The position numbers were made by a program, and so were the translations under genes. The notes beneath the pieces were generated by a model. It was not told the origin of the DNA. It saw only the letters and a program-made list of their open reading frames with translations, and made no database searches. Positions 18,914 through 33,426 of a stretch of DNA of 53,773 nt are shown in pieces. The stretch comes from a virus: the IMG/VR virus record IMGVR_UViG_3300027985_000172, positions 1 to 53,773 of that record, one strand, 5' to 3'. How positions within the stretch are numbered: the stretch's first letter is position 1; every line of letters begins with the position of its first letter.

Positions 18914-19405
18914 TTAAATATTTGTGAATTCTTTGTGGTATTTCTTGGCTGCTGTATCATACGCAATCTTTGCATCATTAAAATTACTGAAGTATCCAAG
19001 AAAGATAGACTTCCCACCTGACATTATCCTTGCCCTATAGCAATCAGTCTTCTTATAGTAACCAACACCTTTTGTATCAGGATCAAATCTGTTCATACAG
19101 TTTTGTGATCTTGTCGTGCACCTTAGATTAGAGAATCTGTTGTCTAACTTATCACCGTTAATGTGGTCAATATCATTCGGTGGCCAGTATCCATTATATA
19201 GAAACCAAGCAAGCCTGTGTGCTGCCACCTTCTTCCCGACAATATGAACCCTAAGGTAGCCAGATTTTTCTAAACTGCCAGCTTCATAAAGTGCAGTTTT
19301 CCTGTAGTTAGTTTTGAGCCAATATATCTTACCTGAGTCTGGGTCGTATCTTAAAGATTCCCTTATCTTAGCTTCATCTCCCTTTGAAAATTGTTGCCTC
19401 AACAT
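18914..19405 (-). CDS. HNH homing endonuclease with AP2 domain
   Basis: The product is 163 aa. The HNH core is NDIDHINGDKLDNRFSNLRC (residues about 77-96), with Asp-His-Asn as metal-binding and catalytic residues. A C-terminal AP2-like DNA-binding domain follows (ARIMSGGKSIFLGYFSNFND). This is the free-standing homing endonuclease type common in phages. It begins inside the last 32 bases of the methyltransferase gene, so it has probably invaded at that gene's 3' end. Confidence 0.92.
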   Translation of the reverse strand: MLRQQFSKGDEAKIRESLRYDPDSGKIYWLKTNYRKTALYEAGSLEKSGYLRVHIVGKKVAAHRLAWFLYNGYWPPNDIDHINGDKLDNRFSNLRCTTRSQNCMNRFDPDTKGVGYYKKTDCYRARIMSGGKSIFLGYFSNFNDAKIAYDTAAKKYHKEFTNI

Positions 19406-22580: not shown

Positions 22581-22789
22581 GAATCGTTCTCCTCATCAGA
22601 GAGCCAACCAATGTCTACCCCATGAGCCAACCCCATAGTATACACTTGATCCATCACCTGCATAATGGTTGCCCACACACGACTACTGATTTTCCCCGGA
22701 AGTGTATCAATCTCCTCTGGTGTATATGGGGCTACAATGTGTGCAGGGTGTAAAATGTCTACGTCTAACCAGTCTGTCTCAAGGGTCAT
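22577..22789 (-). CDS. 70-aa unknown protein
   Basis: The product is 70 aa, acidic, helical in its middle (VWATIMQVMDQVYTMGLAHG). Both ends overlap the neighbours by ATGA. No family recognised. It lies between the SLOG protein and an HNH nuclease. Confidence 0.6.
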   Translation of the reverse strand: MTLETDWLDVDILHPAHIVAPYTPEEIDTLPGKISSRVWATIMQVMDQVYTMGLAHGVDIGWLSDEENDS

Positions 22790-23163
22790 TTCTTCCTACG
22801 TTCATTTGCTATTTGCCTCTCCTCTTGGCTCTTAATATCGTGGCAGGTTTTGCAGATTAACCATAAGTTATCTTCTTCACAGAATAGGTTCTCAACAAAG
22901 GAGTCCCAAGTAGTAAACCCTGTCTTGGGGTCCACGCAGGGCTTCTTATGATCCACAAAGATATTATGCTTTCCCTTTAGCGTAGGAGGAACAATTTCCC
23001 CACAAGAAGCACATTTGTATTGCCCCCTACCCACCCTAGCGTCTTTCTTCACCTTCTGGTTAGGCCCCCATTTACGAGAACCTGCCCTTAAGAGGCTTTT
23101 GACAAAGGAAGTGAATCTAGCTTCTGTCCATTTACCATTATTACGGGTCTTAGTTGGTTTCAT
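22786..23163 (-). CDS. HNH endonuclease (zinc-bound, non-homing type)
   Basis: The product is 125 aa from ATG 23163, which overlaps the exonuclease stop by ATGA; an ATG at 23178 is the alternative. Two zinc-binding pairs (CASC near residue 50 and ICKTCHD near 107) flank an HNH core with FVDHKKPC and N...DNLWLIC. It lacks an AP2 domain and is encoded directly after the 5'-3' exonuclease. In T7-like replication cassettes this slot often holds a junction or DNA-processing endonuclease, so it is more likely a resident phage enzyme than a homing element. Confidence 0.8.
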   Translation of the reverse strand: MKPTKTRNNGKWTEARFTSFVKSLLRAGSRKWGPNQKVKKDARVGRGQYKCASCGEIVPPTLKGKHNIFVDHKKPCVDPKTGFTTWDSFVENLFCEEDNLWLICKTCHDIKSQEERQIANERRKK

Positions 23164-23900
23164 GCGGGAGGTTTCCATAATTGCCCCTTATACCTTTGCA
23201 ACCAAGCCATACGGGCGTTAATCAGCAGATATTCCTCAGTTAGTGAATGCTTCAGGTAGGCTTCCTTTACGGCTTCATACATTTCCTCTTCTGTGGTCTT
23301 TCCTTTTAGGATGTCCGCTGCTTTAGCAGGTCCAACACGAGGAATACCAAAGAAGTTATCTGTCCTATCCCCCATCAACACTTGCATGTAGAAGAACTTG
23401 ATGGCTTCCTCTTCTGTCTGATAATGCCACATGTCCTTGACGAAGTTGTAGAGCCAAGCATTAACTGTCTTGAAGTCTTTATCTAAGCTGACAATCACTG
23501 TTTCTTCGGGAAGACCTAAGAAGGCTGTTTCTATAGCAATTAGATCATCTGCCTCACAACCCTCTGAAACAACTGCCCCATAGTTCTCTACAAGCCATTC
23601 CCGAGCATACTCAATGTGCTTAGGTTTCTCTTGTTCTTTCCTTTGCATCTTGTAGCTATCAAACAGCTTGTGTCTGAAGTTTCCTTGCCCAGTAAGGAAC
23701 ACCTTAAATTGTCCTTCTGTAGGGAAGACTACAGTATTGTCTAGGATTGAAACAAGGAGACGTTCAAGAACTTCCCCACATTCCTCCTCTGGCTTCTCTT
23801 GTGTGGCGAAGGCTGCTCGATAGCACAAAATATCACCATCAACCAATACGAGAGAGATTGCTTTAGGTTTGTTACTCAATTTTATTACCTGATACAACAC
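23160..23900 (-). CDS. 5'-3' exonuclease (T7 gp6 / FEN-like)
   Basis: The product is 246 aa. Acidic motifs of the FEN/5' nuclease superfamily are present: LVDGDILCYRAAF near residue 19, EGCEADDLIA near 115, VSLDKDFKT near 138 and MGDRTDNFFGIPRVGPAKAA near 176-195, the last being the helix-hairpin-helix. It removes RNA primers and resects DNA ends. Position between ThyX/MazG and HNH genes fits a T7-like replication module. Confidence 0.92.
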   Translation of the reverse strand: MLYQVIKLSNKPKAISLVLVDGDILCYRAAFATQEKPEEECGEVLERLLVSILDNTVVFPTEGQFKVFLTGQGNFRHKLFDSYKMQRKEQEKPKHIEYAREWLVENYGAVVSEGCEADDLIAIETAFLGLPEETVIVSLDKDFKTVNAWLYNFVKDMWHYQTEEEAIKFFYMQVLMGDRTDNFFGIPRVGPAKAADILKGKTTEEEMYEAVKEAYLKHSLTEEYLLINARMAWLQRYKGQLWKPPA

Positions 23901-27696: not shown

Positions 27697-28266
27697 TTAG
27701 TGAACAGCAGCGTAGTTCTCCCCGAATTTTACCTCTACGGAAATGTCCACATTGAGTCCAAGCGCCCTGTTAACTTCCTGCATGGATTCCTTCAAGTCTT
27801 GCTCAACACGGTCTTTGTCACAATCTTTAGGAACCTGCAACAGAACTTCATCGTGATAGTTTGCAGACAATTTATACCCCTTCTTGCGCAGCATAAGAAC
27901 CCAATAGTTGAAGCAGTAATCCCCCGTAGATTGGTTGCAGGTAGACCACCTGTCTTTATCGTAACGGAGTTGGTGGTAAAAACCTGAAAGTGGGTTCTTA
28001 AGCCACATGCTACCATCTTTTAGAGTCTTCACGTATTGGTTCCCCGCAACTTTCTTGACAGACCAATTTACCTTCCAATAGGCTTCTAGGAGGGCTTTAG
28101 CTTCCTTCTCAGGGATTTGCAACTCTCTGGCTAATTTAGCTGCACCAACGCCATAGACTGCTGAATATGAAACGGTCTTCGCCTTTTGTCGAACTTCTGT
28201 AAGATGGTGGAACAACTCCTCCTGTTTTTCTATGGGGAGGGCTTTTATATCATCCAATGTCCTCAT
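27697..28266 (-). CDS. DNA polymerase A, C-terminal piece (motifs B and C)
   Basis: The product is 189 aa. It carries family A motif B (RQKAKTVSYSAVYGVG, the O helix, with Lys and Tyr conserved) near residues 26-41 and motif C (NYHDEVLLQV, catalytic Asp-Glu) near 136-145. These belong to the palm and fingers of the polymerase whose motif A is on the preceding gene. It starts at an ATG that overlaps the preceding stop by ATGA. The N-terminal 25 residues (LDDIKALPIEKQEELFHHL) form a linker or interface. Confidence 0.9.
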   Translation of the reverse strand: MRTLDDIKALPIEKQEELFHHLTEVRQKAKTVSYSAVYGVGAAKLARELQIPEKEAKALLEAYWKVNWSVKKVAGNQYVKTLKDGSMWLKNPLSGFYHQLRYDKDRWSTCNQSTGDYCFNYWVLMLRKKGYKLSANYHDEVLLQVPKDCDKDRVEQDLKESMQEVNRALGLNVDISVEVKFGENYAAVH

Positions 28267-29234
28267 TTATCTTTGGCCTTAAACCATTTGAAAAACTCAT
28301 ATTCATCTTCTGTCATTTTACCTGCTTCAATAGCAATTTGGCAGTGCGGATCATATCCGGGGGTATTCATACCCTCTACAAACCCACTATCAAGCTCATA
28401 GATCAGGTGACGTTTGGTCATGTCCTCTAGGGAGCTTACATCAGAACCACAGAAGACCATTCCATCTTGGGGGACGATACAACCTCTGATCTCCTCTCCC
28501 CAAGGGACGCTAGAAATTGCCTTTGGCAGGTTAACAATAGGAACCCTATGTTTTAAACGAAGGGTATTGGTAAGTCCACCAGCGGATGCCACAACATTAC
28601 CATCTTCATCGGAGTGTTCAAGGAAAGACTTAAAAATAGCCATCCTGTGTTTAGCTACAGCAAGCCCCTCAAGTGCAGATAACTCAGGGGCTTTCTTAAC
28701 AAGCTTGACTACACTGTCAGTAAGTTCCCCTTTACGCGGGTCATTCTGTCCGTAGTAGTATAGTTGAGGAATCTTCTTTTCTTCCCCAGTTTCCTTATCA
28801 CGAACAAACTTAAATGTGCATGGTTGCCACCCAAGACCAAATAACCAATCTTTTAATTGGATGTTCGAGTTAGGATTCCCATCTTCATAGCCTACAACCT
28901 CACCAACTGGCCCTACAGACCCTTCAGGAAGCCCTAGACGTGACAGGGTGGAGAACCACTTAGCCCCATGACTAGAGAGGCTACCATCTTTCTTATAGCA
29001 CACCTTAGGCTTGTTGTAATAAGCCATCTGTGGAACCTTTGGCATTGCCTGCCTAAGCTCTTCTCGTTTAGTTTCTACAATTAGGGATAGTTCGTCATAG
29101 TGCTTCTTGGCTTTCTCTCGGTCAATCTTTAGTGGATTAGCTTCTTGTTCTTGTAGGCACGACATCTTGAAAGAAAGATAACGAATGAAACGTAAGATTT
29201 CATTACTTAAAGTTTGTTCTTGCATATTCTCCAT
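28263..29234 (-). CDS. DNA polymerase A, middle piece (thumb and motif A)
   Basis: The product is 323 aa from ATG 29234, chosen for GAGG seven bases upstream. It begins with a helical region like the T7 polymerase thumb (EANPLKIDREKAKKHYDEL), continues with HRVPIVNLPK, and contains motif A as FCGSDVSSLEDMTKRH (catalytic Asp) near residue 275. It ends DEYEFFKWFKAKDK just before motif B would follow. Alone it lacks half of the active site, so it must associate with the next gene's product. Confidence 0.9.
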   Translation of the reverse strand: MENMQEQTLSNEILRFIRYLSFKMSCLQEQEANPLKIDREKAKKHYDELSLIVETKREELRQAMPKVPQMAYYNKPKVCYKKDGSLSSHGAKWFSTLSRLGLPEGSVGPVGEVVGYEDGNPNSNIQLKDWLFGLGWQPCTFKFVRDKETGEEKKIPQLYYYGQNDPRKGELTDSVVKLVKKAPELSALEGLAVAKHRMAIFKSFLEHSDEDGNVVASAGGLTNTLRLKHRVPIVNLPKAISSVPWGEEIRGCIVPQDGMVFCGSDVSSLEDMTKRHLIYELDSGFVEGMNTPGYDPHCQIAIEAGKMTEDEYEFFKWFKAKDK

Positions 29235-29712
29235 GTAGTATCCTCGCTGCACAATCATATGCTTTAGCCGCTGCTATTTCGTCAACATACATTCCAAGAT
29301 ATAATTTCTTGCCATCAAGACCGTTTATAGAAACTCTCCATTTAGAGTCCCTCTTAAACCAACAGATACCTTTGTAATGTGAGCTTGTTTTTCTTGGTTT
29401 TCTGTTCCATGTATTTTGCTTATGTGTAACTTCCCTTAGATTAGAGATTCTATTATCTAGTCTATCCCCATTAATATGGTCAATCTGTCCAGTATGCCAA
29501 CGCCCATTCTTAATTGCAAAAGCTACTGCATGAGCTTTAATATGAATACCACCAACAGAACCTTTATAATAACCGTCTCCACTATATGTTTTAAAGCATT
29601 CCCGACCCTTAACAGCGCCCCCACGTAAATTCTTCTTCCAATAAAACTTACCAGTGTTTGGATCGTAGTCTACAACAGATTTAACATAATCTATATCGGG
29701 TTTATCTGCCAT
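29203..29712 (-). CDS. HNH homing endonuclease inside the polymerase gene
   Basis: The product is 169 aa. HNH core GQIDHINGDRLDNRISNLRE near residues 75-94 is followed by an AP2-like domain (SINGLDGKKLYLGMYVDEIA). The gene overlaps the exonuclease piece by 11 bases and the polymerase middle piece by about 30 bases. It separates the 3'-5' exonuclease from the polymerase domain of one ancestral gene. No room for an intron is left, so the split is at the protein level. Confidence 0.92.
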   Translation of the reverse strand: MADKPDIDYVKSVVDYDPNTGKFYWKKNLRGGAVKGRECFKTYSGDGYYKGSVGGIHIKAHAVAFAIKNGRWHTGQIDHINGDRLDNRISNLREVTHKQNTWNRKPRKTSSHYKGICWFKRDSKWRVSINGLDGKKLYLGMYVDEIAAAKAYDCAARILHGEYARTNFK

Positions 29713-30160
29713 AGATTTCCCCCAATCGTTCTTTCTGCTTTTCCCAAAGCAACCAGTTAATCTTCACGTCCCGAAGAACCCGCTCACGCATAAGCTCTAC
29801 GTTACCTTCAGCCCATTCCTCTTTATTCACCTTCACTTTAGGAAAACCAAAAGAAACACCCCAACTCTCTAGACCATGCTCATTACGTTCAGGAAACAAA
29901 TACCAAGACAATGCCAAAGAGTCAACGAATTTGCTGTAAGGTAGGTTTAGACCAAGAATGCGCTCGAAGACAACTTTATCATGGCGAATATTATTGTGGC
30001 ACACAAACAAAGTGTCTTCTTGCGTAAGAACCTTTCGCATCTCATCATAGTCTGTGGTGAACCCGTAGTTCTCCCCGTCTTCTGTCCAACCAAGGTTCCA
30101 CAACTTTGTGCAGGAATAGGCTAGATTGTCACTTTCGGAGTCCAACACTAGGAATTTCAT
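29702..30160 (-). CDS. DNA polymerase A, 3'-5' exonuclease piece
   Basis: The product is 152 aa. Exo I (LVLDSESDNLAY, Asp-x-Glu), Exo II (CHNNIRHDKVVFE) and Exo III-like (RVLRDVKINWLLW) acidic residues are all in place. The segment HGLESWG is like T7 polymerase. It ends GEIYGR at the position where T7 polymerase leaves the exonuclease domain. With the two other pieces the total is about 664 aa, close to T7 polymerase (704). It supplies proofreading. Confidence 0.9.
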   Translation of the reverse strand: MKFLVLDSESDNLAYSCTKLWNLGWTEDGENYGFTTDYDEMRKVLTQEDTLFVCHNNIRHDKVVFERILGLNLPYSKFVDSLALSWYLFPERNEHGLESWGVSFGFPKVKVNKEEWAEGNVELMRERVLRDVKINWLLWEKQKERLGEIYGR

Positions 30161-30596: not shown

Positions 30597-33122
30597 TCAA
30601 AAGTCTTGTCTCTCCACCTTAGGCTCCTTCGGACCTTGTTTCTCACTCAAGATAGTTGTCTCTGCATCATAAGTCAAGGCCCCCGCTGCGCCAGTAGAAC
30701 CAAAGGGGCGGTTCTTCGTAATCGTAAGATATGCTGTGTTACGCTCTTCCATATCCTCAGCAAAACGGTCACGCTCAAGCTCAATCAGGACAATTGCCTC
30801 TTCTTCGATACTCTTGGCATATTTTGTATGTCCTTCCTCATTAACGTGACTGATCGCAATAATACCAACATTCTTACGCTTAGCTAGTTCAGTAAGTTTA
30901 ACGCCAAGAGATGTTAGGTTTGATGTAGCTGCATCTGTTCCTGATAGATAAGCAAGTCGTTGAAGGTGGTCAATCCAAATGTAATCTGCACCATATACTG
31001 CAATAGCATGGTTACACTGACGAAGTGTATCTTCAATAGGGTCTTGCGGGTTAATGTCGAAAGACACAAACCTTTCTTCACCAATAACCTCTTTTAGAGC
31101 TTCCTTCACTTCCTCTTCAGAAACACCATTCCACTCAGCATCCTCCTTGGTCATTACGTTCTTCCCAAGTTGGTAGGAAGCCATAGCCCTTCCTGTAATA
31201 CTCTTTACCTCTTCCATCATAAGGCAAGCTACAGTGAGGTTTTCCTTGGTTACAATGTGGTGTTGCAGGCAGCGTAGCAATGAACTTTTACCACTTCCCG
31301 GTGGGGCCTTAATTACCGTGATACCACCTTTCACAAGCCCACGACCAACCTTGTTGAAGTCTGCGAATGGTGTTGGAACATACTCATAAGGGTCTTCTTC
31401 CTCAAGAGCAGTCATCCAGTCATCCACAGAAGCGGTGAAGCCAGCGGGTGAATACTTCTTAGCCTTCCACCAAGCACTCTTGTATGCTGCACCATCACCA
31501 GCTTGCAGGAAATCATTGGCGTCCTTATGCTGCCCATGATCCATGACATAGATTTTACCGGGGAATAGATCAAACATAGTCTCAAGGACTTTTTGACCCG
31601 GTTCATCTTTATCTGCACTAACTACAATCTTCTCAAATGAGTCTAGATAGGTTTTGCATTTCTCCCACAGTTTACCAGAAGGGTTTGCCCCCGGAAGGCC
31701 AACAACAGGATTTAGGTAGCTACTCTTTAGCATCTGATGTGCAGACATTGCGTCACAGTTCCCTGACACTGATACTGATCCGTTTTGCCGGACAAGAATC
31801 ATACCAGAAGGCACTTGGACACACATCACACGACCATTAAACGGGACTTTTTTGTAACCCTTCTGTGTTGATGAAGAAGTCTTACTAAAGAGGATAGAAA
31901 CCTTAAGCCACTCACCATATTGATTACTGCGATTCATAATTGTTGAGACATAGCCACACGAATGAGCTAGTGCCTGAACAACGTCCGCATTATGCTTTCT
32001 ATTTGTTGAGAACTCTGCTTGATTTCGCCCCTTTACATAGTTGCCATCCCAGAAGATAATCTCGTCAAGAATTTCTTTCTTATGCTGTGACCACACCATA
32101 GACCAAGGAAGGTCTTTTTTGGCAAAGTCAAGGTTATGCCCACGGTGGATAAACACAGATGTATAACCATTCTTAACCTTATTAGCAGAGAATCTTACGC
32201 CATAATTGGAAAGAAGTTGTTTTACACGGTCAATTTTACGTTGTTTCTTGAAAGCACCATAAATGTCACCACTCTTCCTAAATGTAAAATCTGCGGATAG
32301 CATAACCCACAGTTGTAGTTGTTCAATAGTATACCCACACCAACCTTGAAGATCAGCAACACGTGGGATGCTGAAGAAAGAATTGACCTCAGCTTTGAAC
32401 TTCTTTAGACCCTCTTTTGGGTGATTTCTTACTAGGTTGTGTTCTGGTGTAGTCAGCGAGTAGTAAGAACCAGACTTATACTCGACAAGATCGCCAGAGA
32501 ATTGCTTATCAATAATAGCATCTGGAACAACCCAACTCCCTGTCCCATCACTATTGACTTGCATCACACGATCTTCTGCGTAAAGTTGGTTAAACTGCTT
32601 CCAACCATTCGGTGTTAGGATTTCTGCCGTTTCTGGAAAACACTCCCCCTCTGTGATAGTTAGAACCTTAGCACAACCAGCAGGGAACAAGTTCATCCCA
32701 AACAGTTCATCTCCCTTAAAGCCATTCCCCGAGTAGAAAGCCTTGTGGGCAGTGTTGCGAGTCTTAGTCCCTCCTGATGGATAGACATACCGTTGCTCAT
32801 CACCATACTGGTAGACACCAAAGAACTCTAGTGTCTCCTTGGTAATCCCCCTCATAGGGACAATATGCCCTTCCTTCGTAGAGCCACTTTCTAGCGTCAT
32901 ACAGGTGTCCTCTTCATCTTCTGCTACCAACCCACCATCATATACTAGGAAGGGCTTCTGTGCCTTGCTGTGGCGTCCCCAGAGGCGTCCTTTGTCGTCT
33001 TCCCATGTGGAGAGGCCACAAGATTTGCATTCCCCAACTCTTTTTACAGTATTAAAGTAGTAAGAATCACTACCGCGAGTAGAACTGTTGTGTGCTGGGC
33101 ATTGACCTTTATGTTCAGTCAT
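30597..33122 (-). CDS. T7 gp4-like primase-helicase containing an intein
   Basis: The precursor is 841 aa from ATG 33122; removing the 295-aa intein leaves 546 aa, close to T7 gp4 (566). Exteins show a zinc motif (CPAH...CKSCG, near residues 8-38), a TOPRIM domain with TITEGE|CDAMSA (catalytic Glu) and SADKDEPG (DxD), and a DnaB-type helicase with Walker A KAPPGSGKSS and Walker B-like YIWIDHLQ. It unwinds DNA and makes primers for the T7-like polymerase. The start overlaps the upstream stop; an in-frame ATG at 33182 is further back and lacks support. Confidence 0.93.
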   Translation of the reverse strand: MTEHKGQCPAHNSSTRGSDSYYFNTVKRVGECKSCGLSTWEDDKGRLWGRHSKAQKPFLVYDGGLVAEDEEDTCMTLESGSTKEGHIVPMRGITKETLEFFGVYQYGDEQRYVYPSGGTKTRNTAHKAFYSGNGFKGDELFGMNLFPAGCAKVLTITEGECFPETAEILTPNGWKQFNQLYAEDRVMQVNSDGTGSWVVPDAIIDKQFSGDLVEYKSGSYYSLTTPEHNLVRNHPKEGLKKFKAEVNSFFSIPRVADLQGWCGYTIEQLQLWVMLSADFTFRKSGDIYGAFKKQRKIDRVKQLLSNYGVRFSANKVKNGYTSVFIHRGHNLDFAKKDLPWSMVWSQHKKEILDEIIFWDGNYVKGRNQAEFSTNRKHNADVVQALAHSCGYVSTIMNRSNQYGEWLKVSILFSKTSSSTQKGYKKVPFNGRVMCVQVPSGMILVRQNGSVSVSGNCDAMSAHQMLKSSYLNPVVGLPGANPSGKLWEKCKTYLDSFEKIVVSADKDEPGQKVLETMFDLFPGKIYVMDHGQHKDANDFLQAGDGAAYKSAWWKAKKYSPAGFTASVDDWMTALEEEDPYEYVPTPFADFNKVGRGLVKGGITVIKAPPGSGKSSLLRCLQHHIVTKENLTVACLMMEEVKSITGRAMASYQLGKNVMTKEDAEWNGVSEEEVKEALKEVIGEERFVSFDINPQDPIEDTLRQCNHAIAVYGADYIWIDHLQRLAYLSGTDAATSNLTSLGVKLTELAKRKNVGIIAISHVNEEGHTKYAKSIEEEAIVLIELERDRFAEDMEERNTAYLTITKNRPFGSTGAAGALTYDAETTILSEKQGPKEPKVERQDF
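31758..32642 (-). other. intein in TOPRIM motif of primase-helicase
   Basis: The insert is 295 codons. It begins Cys1 in CFPETAEILTPNGW (block A), contains TTPEHNLV (block B, His), and ends VPSGMILVRQNG (block F-like) and SVSVSGN followed by Cys+1. The penultimate residue is Gly rather than the usual His. The middle part (LWVMLSADFTFRKSGDIYGA, then IIFWDGNYVKGRNQAEFST) resembles a degenerate LAGLIDADG endonuclease. It splits the EGE/DA metal-binding motif, so primase needs protein splicing to be active. Confidence 0.93.
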
Positions 33123-33426
33123 TATAAGTAATCTCTTTGTGGGTAAACCCGTATTTGGAAAGTGTGGAGCTAATTCGCTCACTTACAACACCCGGAGGGG
33201 ATTCGCAATACCAATCCAGATAACAACCTTCACCACGAAGGCCAGCAATAAATCTGCCAGCCGACCTGAAAGTGAACTCAAAGATACCAATAGCAGGCTT
33301 ACCATCCGCATCAAACCAATCGGTATTTGTGAGTGCTGACCAAAGTTCCTTACAGAAATACCTGTCTGTCTTAATTAAGTCTAGAAACTCAATCTTAATA
33401 GCATCTTTAAAATAAATTTCACTCAT
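33115..33426 (-). CDS. 103-aa unknown protein
   Basis: The product is 103 aa. It includes WFDADGKPAIGIFEFTFRSA and GEGCYLDWYCESPPGVVSER, a soluble mixed fold. It overlaps the primase-helicase start by eight bases. No family recognised. Confidence 0.65.
   Translation of the reverse strand: MSEIYFKDAIKIEFLDLIKTDRYFCKELWSALTNTDWFDADGKPAIGIFEFTFRSAGRFIAGLRGEGCYLDWYCESPPGVVSERISSTLSKYGFTHKEITYND

Follow-up and report, generated by a model that had tools for sequence, protein, structure and literature searches.

The window analyzed here comprises 53,773 nucleotides of viral DNA (IMG/VR record IMGVR_UViG_3300027985_000172, positions 1 to 53,773) and carries on its minus strand, at positions 30597-33182, an open reading frame (ORF) with a GTG start that encodes 861 aa; the 841 aa given in the initial annotation correspond to the same ORF counted from an in-frame ATG. 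Profile searches detected Toprim_2 in residues 474-559 of the ORF (E 3.7e-6) and DnaB_C in residues 602-840 (E 1.9e-14), PHROGs returned phrog_239, 'DNA primase/helicase', at E 9e-87, and structures of T7 gp4 aligned with the ORF at E about 1e-13. The gap left in the middle of the ORF by the Toprim_2, DnaB_C, PHROG 239, and T7 gp4 matches corresponds to the 295 residues of an insert whose codons are all open and in frame with the primase-helicase, and whose junctions could be placed exactly to the base, reading TITEGE/CFPETA on the N side and SVSGN/CDAMSA on the C side (here and below, slashes mark the borders of the insert). The host protein is a T7 gp4-type primase-helicase, composed of a TOPRIM and a DnaB-like helicase domain, in which the conserved acidic residues are present. 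The respective features are listed in Table 1.

Table 1. Anatomy of the interrupted primase-helicase gene, in positions of the window
Feature	Position	Strand	Landmarks and basis
N-extein, 180 aa	32643..33182	-	Zinc-finger-like Cys/His motif and N part of primase, ends TITEGE
Intein, 295 aa, class-1-type start (Cys1), Asn295, Cys+1	31758..32642	-	Open frame, junctions, homologues over residues 1-295, fold match
Hint N-terminal part, residues 1-100	32343..32642	-	Cys1 32640-32642; block B T65xxH68 32439-32450
LAGLIDADG homing endonuclease domain, about residues 101-260	31863..32342	-	Catalytic Asp118 32289-32291, Asp199 32046-32048
Hint C-terminal part, residues 261-295	31758..31862	-	Block F Cys274 31821-31823; block G S293-G294-N295
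C-extein, 386 aa and stop	30597..31757	-	Rest of TOPRIM (CDAMSA, SADKDEPG, KDAND) and DnaB/gp4-type helicase domain

In T7 primase, the metals are bound by a set of acids, namely E157 and D161 along with the later acids of the DKD and KDAND motifs. The insert lies between the equivalents of E157 (N side) and D161 (C side), and both Cys1 of the intein and Cys+1 align with T7 gp4 residue 160. The extein alignment with T7 gp4 was consistent on both sides of the insert, every TOPRIM acidic residue was retained in the extein, and the initial proposal that the insert splits the TOPRIM metal-binding motif was borne out. By analogy with T7 gp4, the protein would be unable to assemble the TOPRIM metal site before splicing, and it can soundly be expected that the unspliced form would not prime.

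Comparison with phage records revealed homologues along the entire insert. The 295 residues produced full-length tblastn matches (1-295) at E about 1e-54, the best of which were primases of Mycobacterium phage cluster A1 (38-39% identity, E 4e-54), and members of the same intein family were also found by tblastn in genes for ribonucleotide reductase, nicotinamide phosphoribosyltransferase, PhoH, and RNA ligase. An AlphaFold model built with an alignment of 24 relatives reached a mean pLDDT of 95 and matched solved inteins over the full length (TliVMA, Z 23.8; PI-PfuI, 21.1; PI-SceI, about 20). The Hint fold was recovered from the model, at Z 15-24 to many solved inteins. Curated Pfam and NCBIfam profiles gave weak hits below their cut-offs (intein_Nterm, E 0.034; LAGLIDADG_3, E 0.006); for TIGR01445 the score was 15.1 bits, 24.5 being required. 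The PHROGs matches to this region were indirect, hitting genes that host inteins.

In the alignment of 45 family inteins, Cys1, His68, Thr/Ser65, and Asn295 were each conserved in 45/45. Judged from its sequence, the insert is an intein bearing a Hint splicing domain, given that C1, T65xxH68, N295, and C+1 are present and conserved. This identification, already made in the initial annotation, goes far past what chance would produce, as shown by the full-length homologues, by a 72.5%-identical intein at the same site in another IMG/VR record (L011), and by the matches of the model to solved inteins. Blocks A, B, and F (the last reading VMCVQVPSG) and the penultimate Gly were found as previously described, and block G could be recognized as well. 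We favor, with a probability of roughly 0.9, the reading that this is a mobile and most likely actively splicing intein with a LAGLIDADG homing endonuclease, belonging to a large phage family and within it to a sub-lineage for which the conserved TOPRIM EGE/xD site of phage primases would be the homing target. Splicing of the window intein itself is predicted from its residues and from its relatives.

The initial annotation had pointed out a penultimate Gly in place of His. The Gly is indeed present, but it is no oddity of the window intein, as the GN end was observed in 44/45 family inteins. The residue has been tested experimentally in relatives: the Bethlehem RDF intein splices completely with its native Gly316, while the G316H variant is slow and accumulates precursor (Kelley et al. 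2016, PMC5050341), and in the AceL NrdHF intein G145H abolishes splicing (PMC7891396). In the sequence comparison, the Bethlehem intein was represented by the RDF intein of phage Turj99 (locus L004, 4718-5668; 317 aa), which agrees with the Bethlehem intein in the placement of R157 and G316 and aligns with that of the window at E 1e-10; on these grounds the tested Bethlehem RDF intein was taken as a member of the family. The conservation of Gly in 44/45 sequences, combined with the slowing or abolition of splicing by Gly-to-His exchange in two relatives, rules out that the residue represents damage.

The central domain was previously described as a degenerate LAGLIDADG-like region. The letters of the two motifs do diverge, reading LWVMLSADF and LDEIIFWDG, but the terminal catalytic Asp residues are both kept: D118 was conserved in 38/45 family inteins, with Glu in 6/7 of the exceptions, and D199 in 43/45. 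In the model, both residues lie at predicted helix ends, and the fold of this domain matches those of I-DmoI, PI-SceI, PI-PfuI, and TliVMA. A catalytic acidic residue thus closes each of the two LAGLIDADG-type helices. The endonuclease is also the best-conserved segment in comparison with the L011 intein, exhibiting 78% identity against 64% in the N-terminal and 69% in the C-terminal splicing parts, and the last 30 N-extein residues of the two proteins are 60% identical. Saturation of the synonymous sites in this comparison precludes a dN/dS estimate. Conservation of D118 and D199, along with the highest segment identity, rules out a degenerate endonuclease, and by analogy with its relatives the domain would be expected to cleave DNA. 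Elsewhere in the family, a TOPRIM-site intein (L033, 3001-3897) has both catalytic Asp residues replaced (by Asn and Thr) and an otherwise intact splicing domain, so that its endonuclease has apparently decayed. Additionally, in a tight group of inteins inserted in another phage protein (G/C...GN/SGFPKS; L048 and L052-L055), Glu replaces the first endonuclease Asp in all members.

The distribution of the intein was examined along with that of its host genes. Although the L011 intein occupies the same site and shares 72.5% of its residues with that of the window, identity falls to 35% in the N-extein and 37% in the C-extein, and the primases sharing 70-72% of the window C-extein (L070-L072) are free of inteins. 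Among the nearest relatives by C-extein whose junction could be read, 79/79 lacked the intein. Taken together, these sequence comparisons indicate that the window intein moved recently between distant phage primases. In intein-free primases, the residue at the Cys+1 site is usually Leu/Phe/Val, and Cys was found there in 0/79 of these intein-free C-extein relatives; hence, in the lineage of the window, the intein probably brought the Cys codon along. Intein-free EGECDAM sites were nevertheless found in at least 120 stretches from other phages. In the family tree, all 12 inteins of the EGE/C..GN/CD site fell into one group of 13 rows (support 100/99), the thirteenth being an intein of Proteus/Pseudomonas phages in the context GDE/CDG. 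The hosts of these 12 inteins span T7-like fused enzymes as well as stand-alone primases, a pattern that seems best fitted by a single lineage that homes to the same site in primases of very different kinds. No relatives were found in two scans of bacterial/archaeal genomes, each of which used a single narrow family pattern. One further primase-helicase (L068, 2518-6066; IMGVR_UViG_3300007960_000002) harbors two inteins of this family: one occupies the TOPRIM site, the other lies in the Walker A loop (TAG/C...TGN/SGLGKS).

TOPRIM inteins of mycobacteriophages have already been reported, with an insertion point that 'localizes to the active site' (Kelley et al. 2016, PMC5050341). Those of cluster A1 resemble the window intein in the site (EGE/C..GN/CD), the penultimate Gly, the Cys at F:4, and the endonuclease motifs, with the 38-39% identity given above; the primase of Turj99 (gp53), annotated as 'intein-containing topoisomerase primase', has the junction EGE/C...TGN/CD. 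Their host, however, is a stand-alone primase/TOPRIM protein, whereas that of the window is a fused T7 gp4-type primase-helicase. The Bethlehem-type RDF intein is likewise of the same family and has the penultimate Gly, but it resides in a recombination directionality factor of the metallophosphoesterase type, shares 23% identity, and is followed by Ser+1. More distantly, TliVMA and PI-SceI combine Hint and LAGLIDADG domains in the same way (Z 19-24 across 268-289 residues), although they are larger, only about 12-16% identical, and hosted by V-ATPase subunits. Phage inteins of the same kind and at the same site were thus known before, and the window intein is a well-supported yet mostly expected instance of a mobile, selfish element, with an unusual active site that is common to a large phage family. 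The window intein adds one more well-documented case of a recent intein move between distant phage primases at one TOPRIM site.

A second conserved Cys bears on the class of splicing. Cys274 occupies F:4, the position of the class 3 nucleophile, where Cys was found in 43/45 family inteins; G:5 is Thr/Ser in 43/45, and Trp appears at B:12 in 1/45. Out of the features that define class 3 (no N-terminal Cys/Ser, Trp at B:12, Cys at F:4, and Thr at G:5), the window intein exhibits only the Cys at F:4, bearing Leu70 at B:12 and Ser293 at G:5. The class 3 definition of Tori and Perler in 2011 reportedly also covers a TOPRIM intein from Nocardioides in which class 1 and class 3 motifs are mixed. Among solved relatives, AceL NrdHF is nearest in sequence (E 2.6e-7); this intein has been proven to belong to class 3, starts with Ala1, and bears the Met-Cys-Thr triplet (PMC7891396). 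Its known N-terminal half scored 41.8 bits against the family profile (200 shuffles, at most 7.6) and was nearest to family member L037, and its structure (PDB 6zgq) superimposed on the splicing domain of our model with 1.8 A rmsd over 141 residues (Z 20.2), compared with Z 15.3 for the canonical class 3 intein Msm DnaB. Like the window intein, it has the F:4 Cys and lacks both a penultimate His and Trp at B:12, and it shares the TGN end and the block-F Pro four residues past the Cys with the family; unlike the contiguous window intein with its Cys1, it is split and devoid of an endonuclease. This kinship, in combination with the conservation of F:4 and G:5, speaks for a route in which Cys274 would attack the N-terminal junction directly, leaving Cys1 dispensable as in AceL NrdHF. 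We consider this route unlikely, since a dispensable residue would not be kept in 45/45 sequences, the Trp that usually marks class 3 is confined to one of them, and Cys at F:4 is also known from class 1 inteins (PMC3196547), for which reason this Cys does not make the window intein a new class. Class 1 appears to be the likelier route, because Cys1 is invariant throughout the family.

AceL NrdHF itself appears to be a split member of the family of the window intein that lost Cys1. That the phage family, in which Cys1 and Cys F:4 are both conserved as nucleophiles, was the stock from which this class 3 intein arose through Cys1 loss, independently of the Trp-Cys-Thr group of class 3, is a suggestion that we make tentatively and regard as doubtful; beside it, the verdict of 'implausible' on an origin of AceL via Cys1 loss has to be cited (PMC7664689, 2020). 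The oddities of AceL NrdHF (no penultimate His, no Trp, F:4 Cys, TGN end) are the norm in a widespread phage family that keeps Cys1, which makes the transition from class 1 to class 3 testable by point mutants.

Under the class 1 route, His68 together with Thr65 would strain the N-terminal peptide bond and Cys1 would form the thioester, Cys274 providing the active site with a further conserved thiol; the chain would then be passed to Cys+1, and Asn295 would cyclize without a penultimate His. TITEGE would thereby be joined to CDAMSA in a primase-helicase of 546-566 aa, with Cys replacing the usual Leu/Phe/Val. That such a product is never formed, the intein being decayed and the primase dead, is scarcely credible: inactive inteins exist (PMC3196547), and the noncanonical penultimate Gly and the weak scores to curated intein models could be taken as signs of decay, but the catalytic residues are all intact and typical of the family, the frame is open, the model reaches pLDDT 95, the extein keeps its TOPRIM acidic residues, and Gly is the working residue in the tested relatives. 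The excised intein would presumably cut intein-free primase genes at the TOPRIM site and be copied in with the Cys+1 codon, so that its persistence would reflect selfish spread into a stretch of codons that cannot be deleted rather than regulation. The initial annotation had raised the possibility that splicing could gate DNA replication. Since it separates two metal-binding residues, the insert would prevent priming, and conditional splicing has been reported elsewhere, such as in the mycobacterial DnaB intein (PMC6195587); splicing under given conditions might accordingly hold the primase back and time phage DNA replication. Such a switch is very unlikely here, as the sporadic occurrence, with 79/79 close primase relatives doing without the intein, weakens it, relatives splice fast and completely, and horizontal movement accounts for the presence of the intein without a function. 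The selfish explanation would be sufficient for this presence, because the occurrence is sporadic and there are signs of transfer.

Other elements of the homing type were observed in the window. The gene for DNA polymerase A is broken (27697-30160, minus strand) into ORFs at 29705-30160, 28266-29258, and 27700-28266, which match consecutive parts of PHROG 17 (670-828, 834-1056, and 1058-1231, respectively). Between the first two pieces lies an HNH endonuclease ORF (29206-29712) that takes up the gap, and the second and third meet at overlapping stop/start codons; no group I intron was found at the broken gene with Rfam. Two further HNH endonuclease ORFs are located at 18917-19405 and 22789-23178, both on the minus strand, so that the phage carries several endonucleases of the homing type besides that of the intein.
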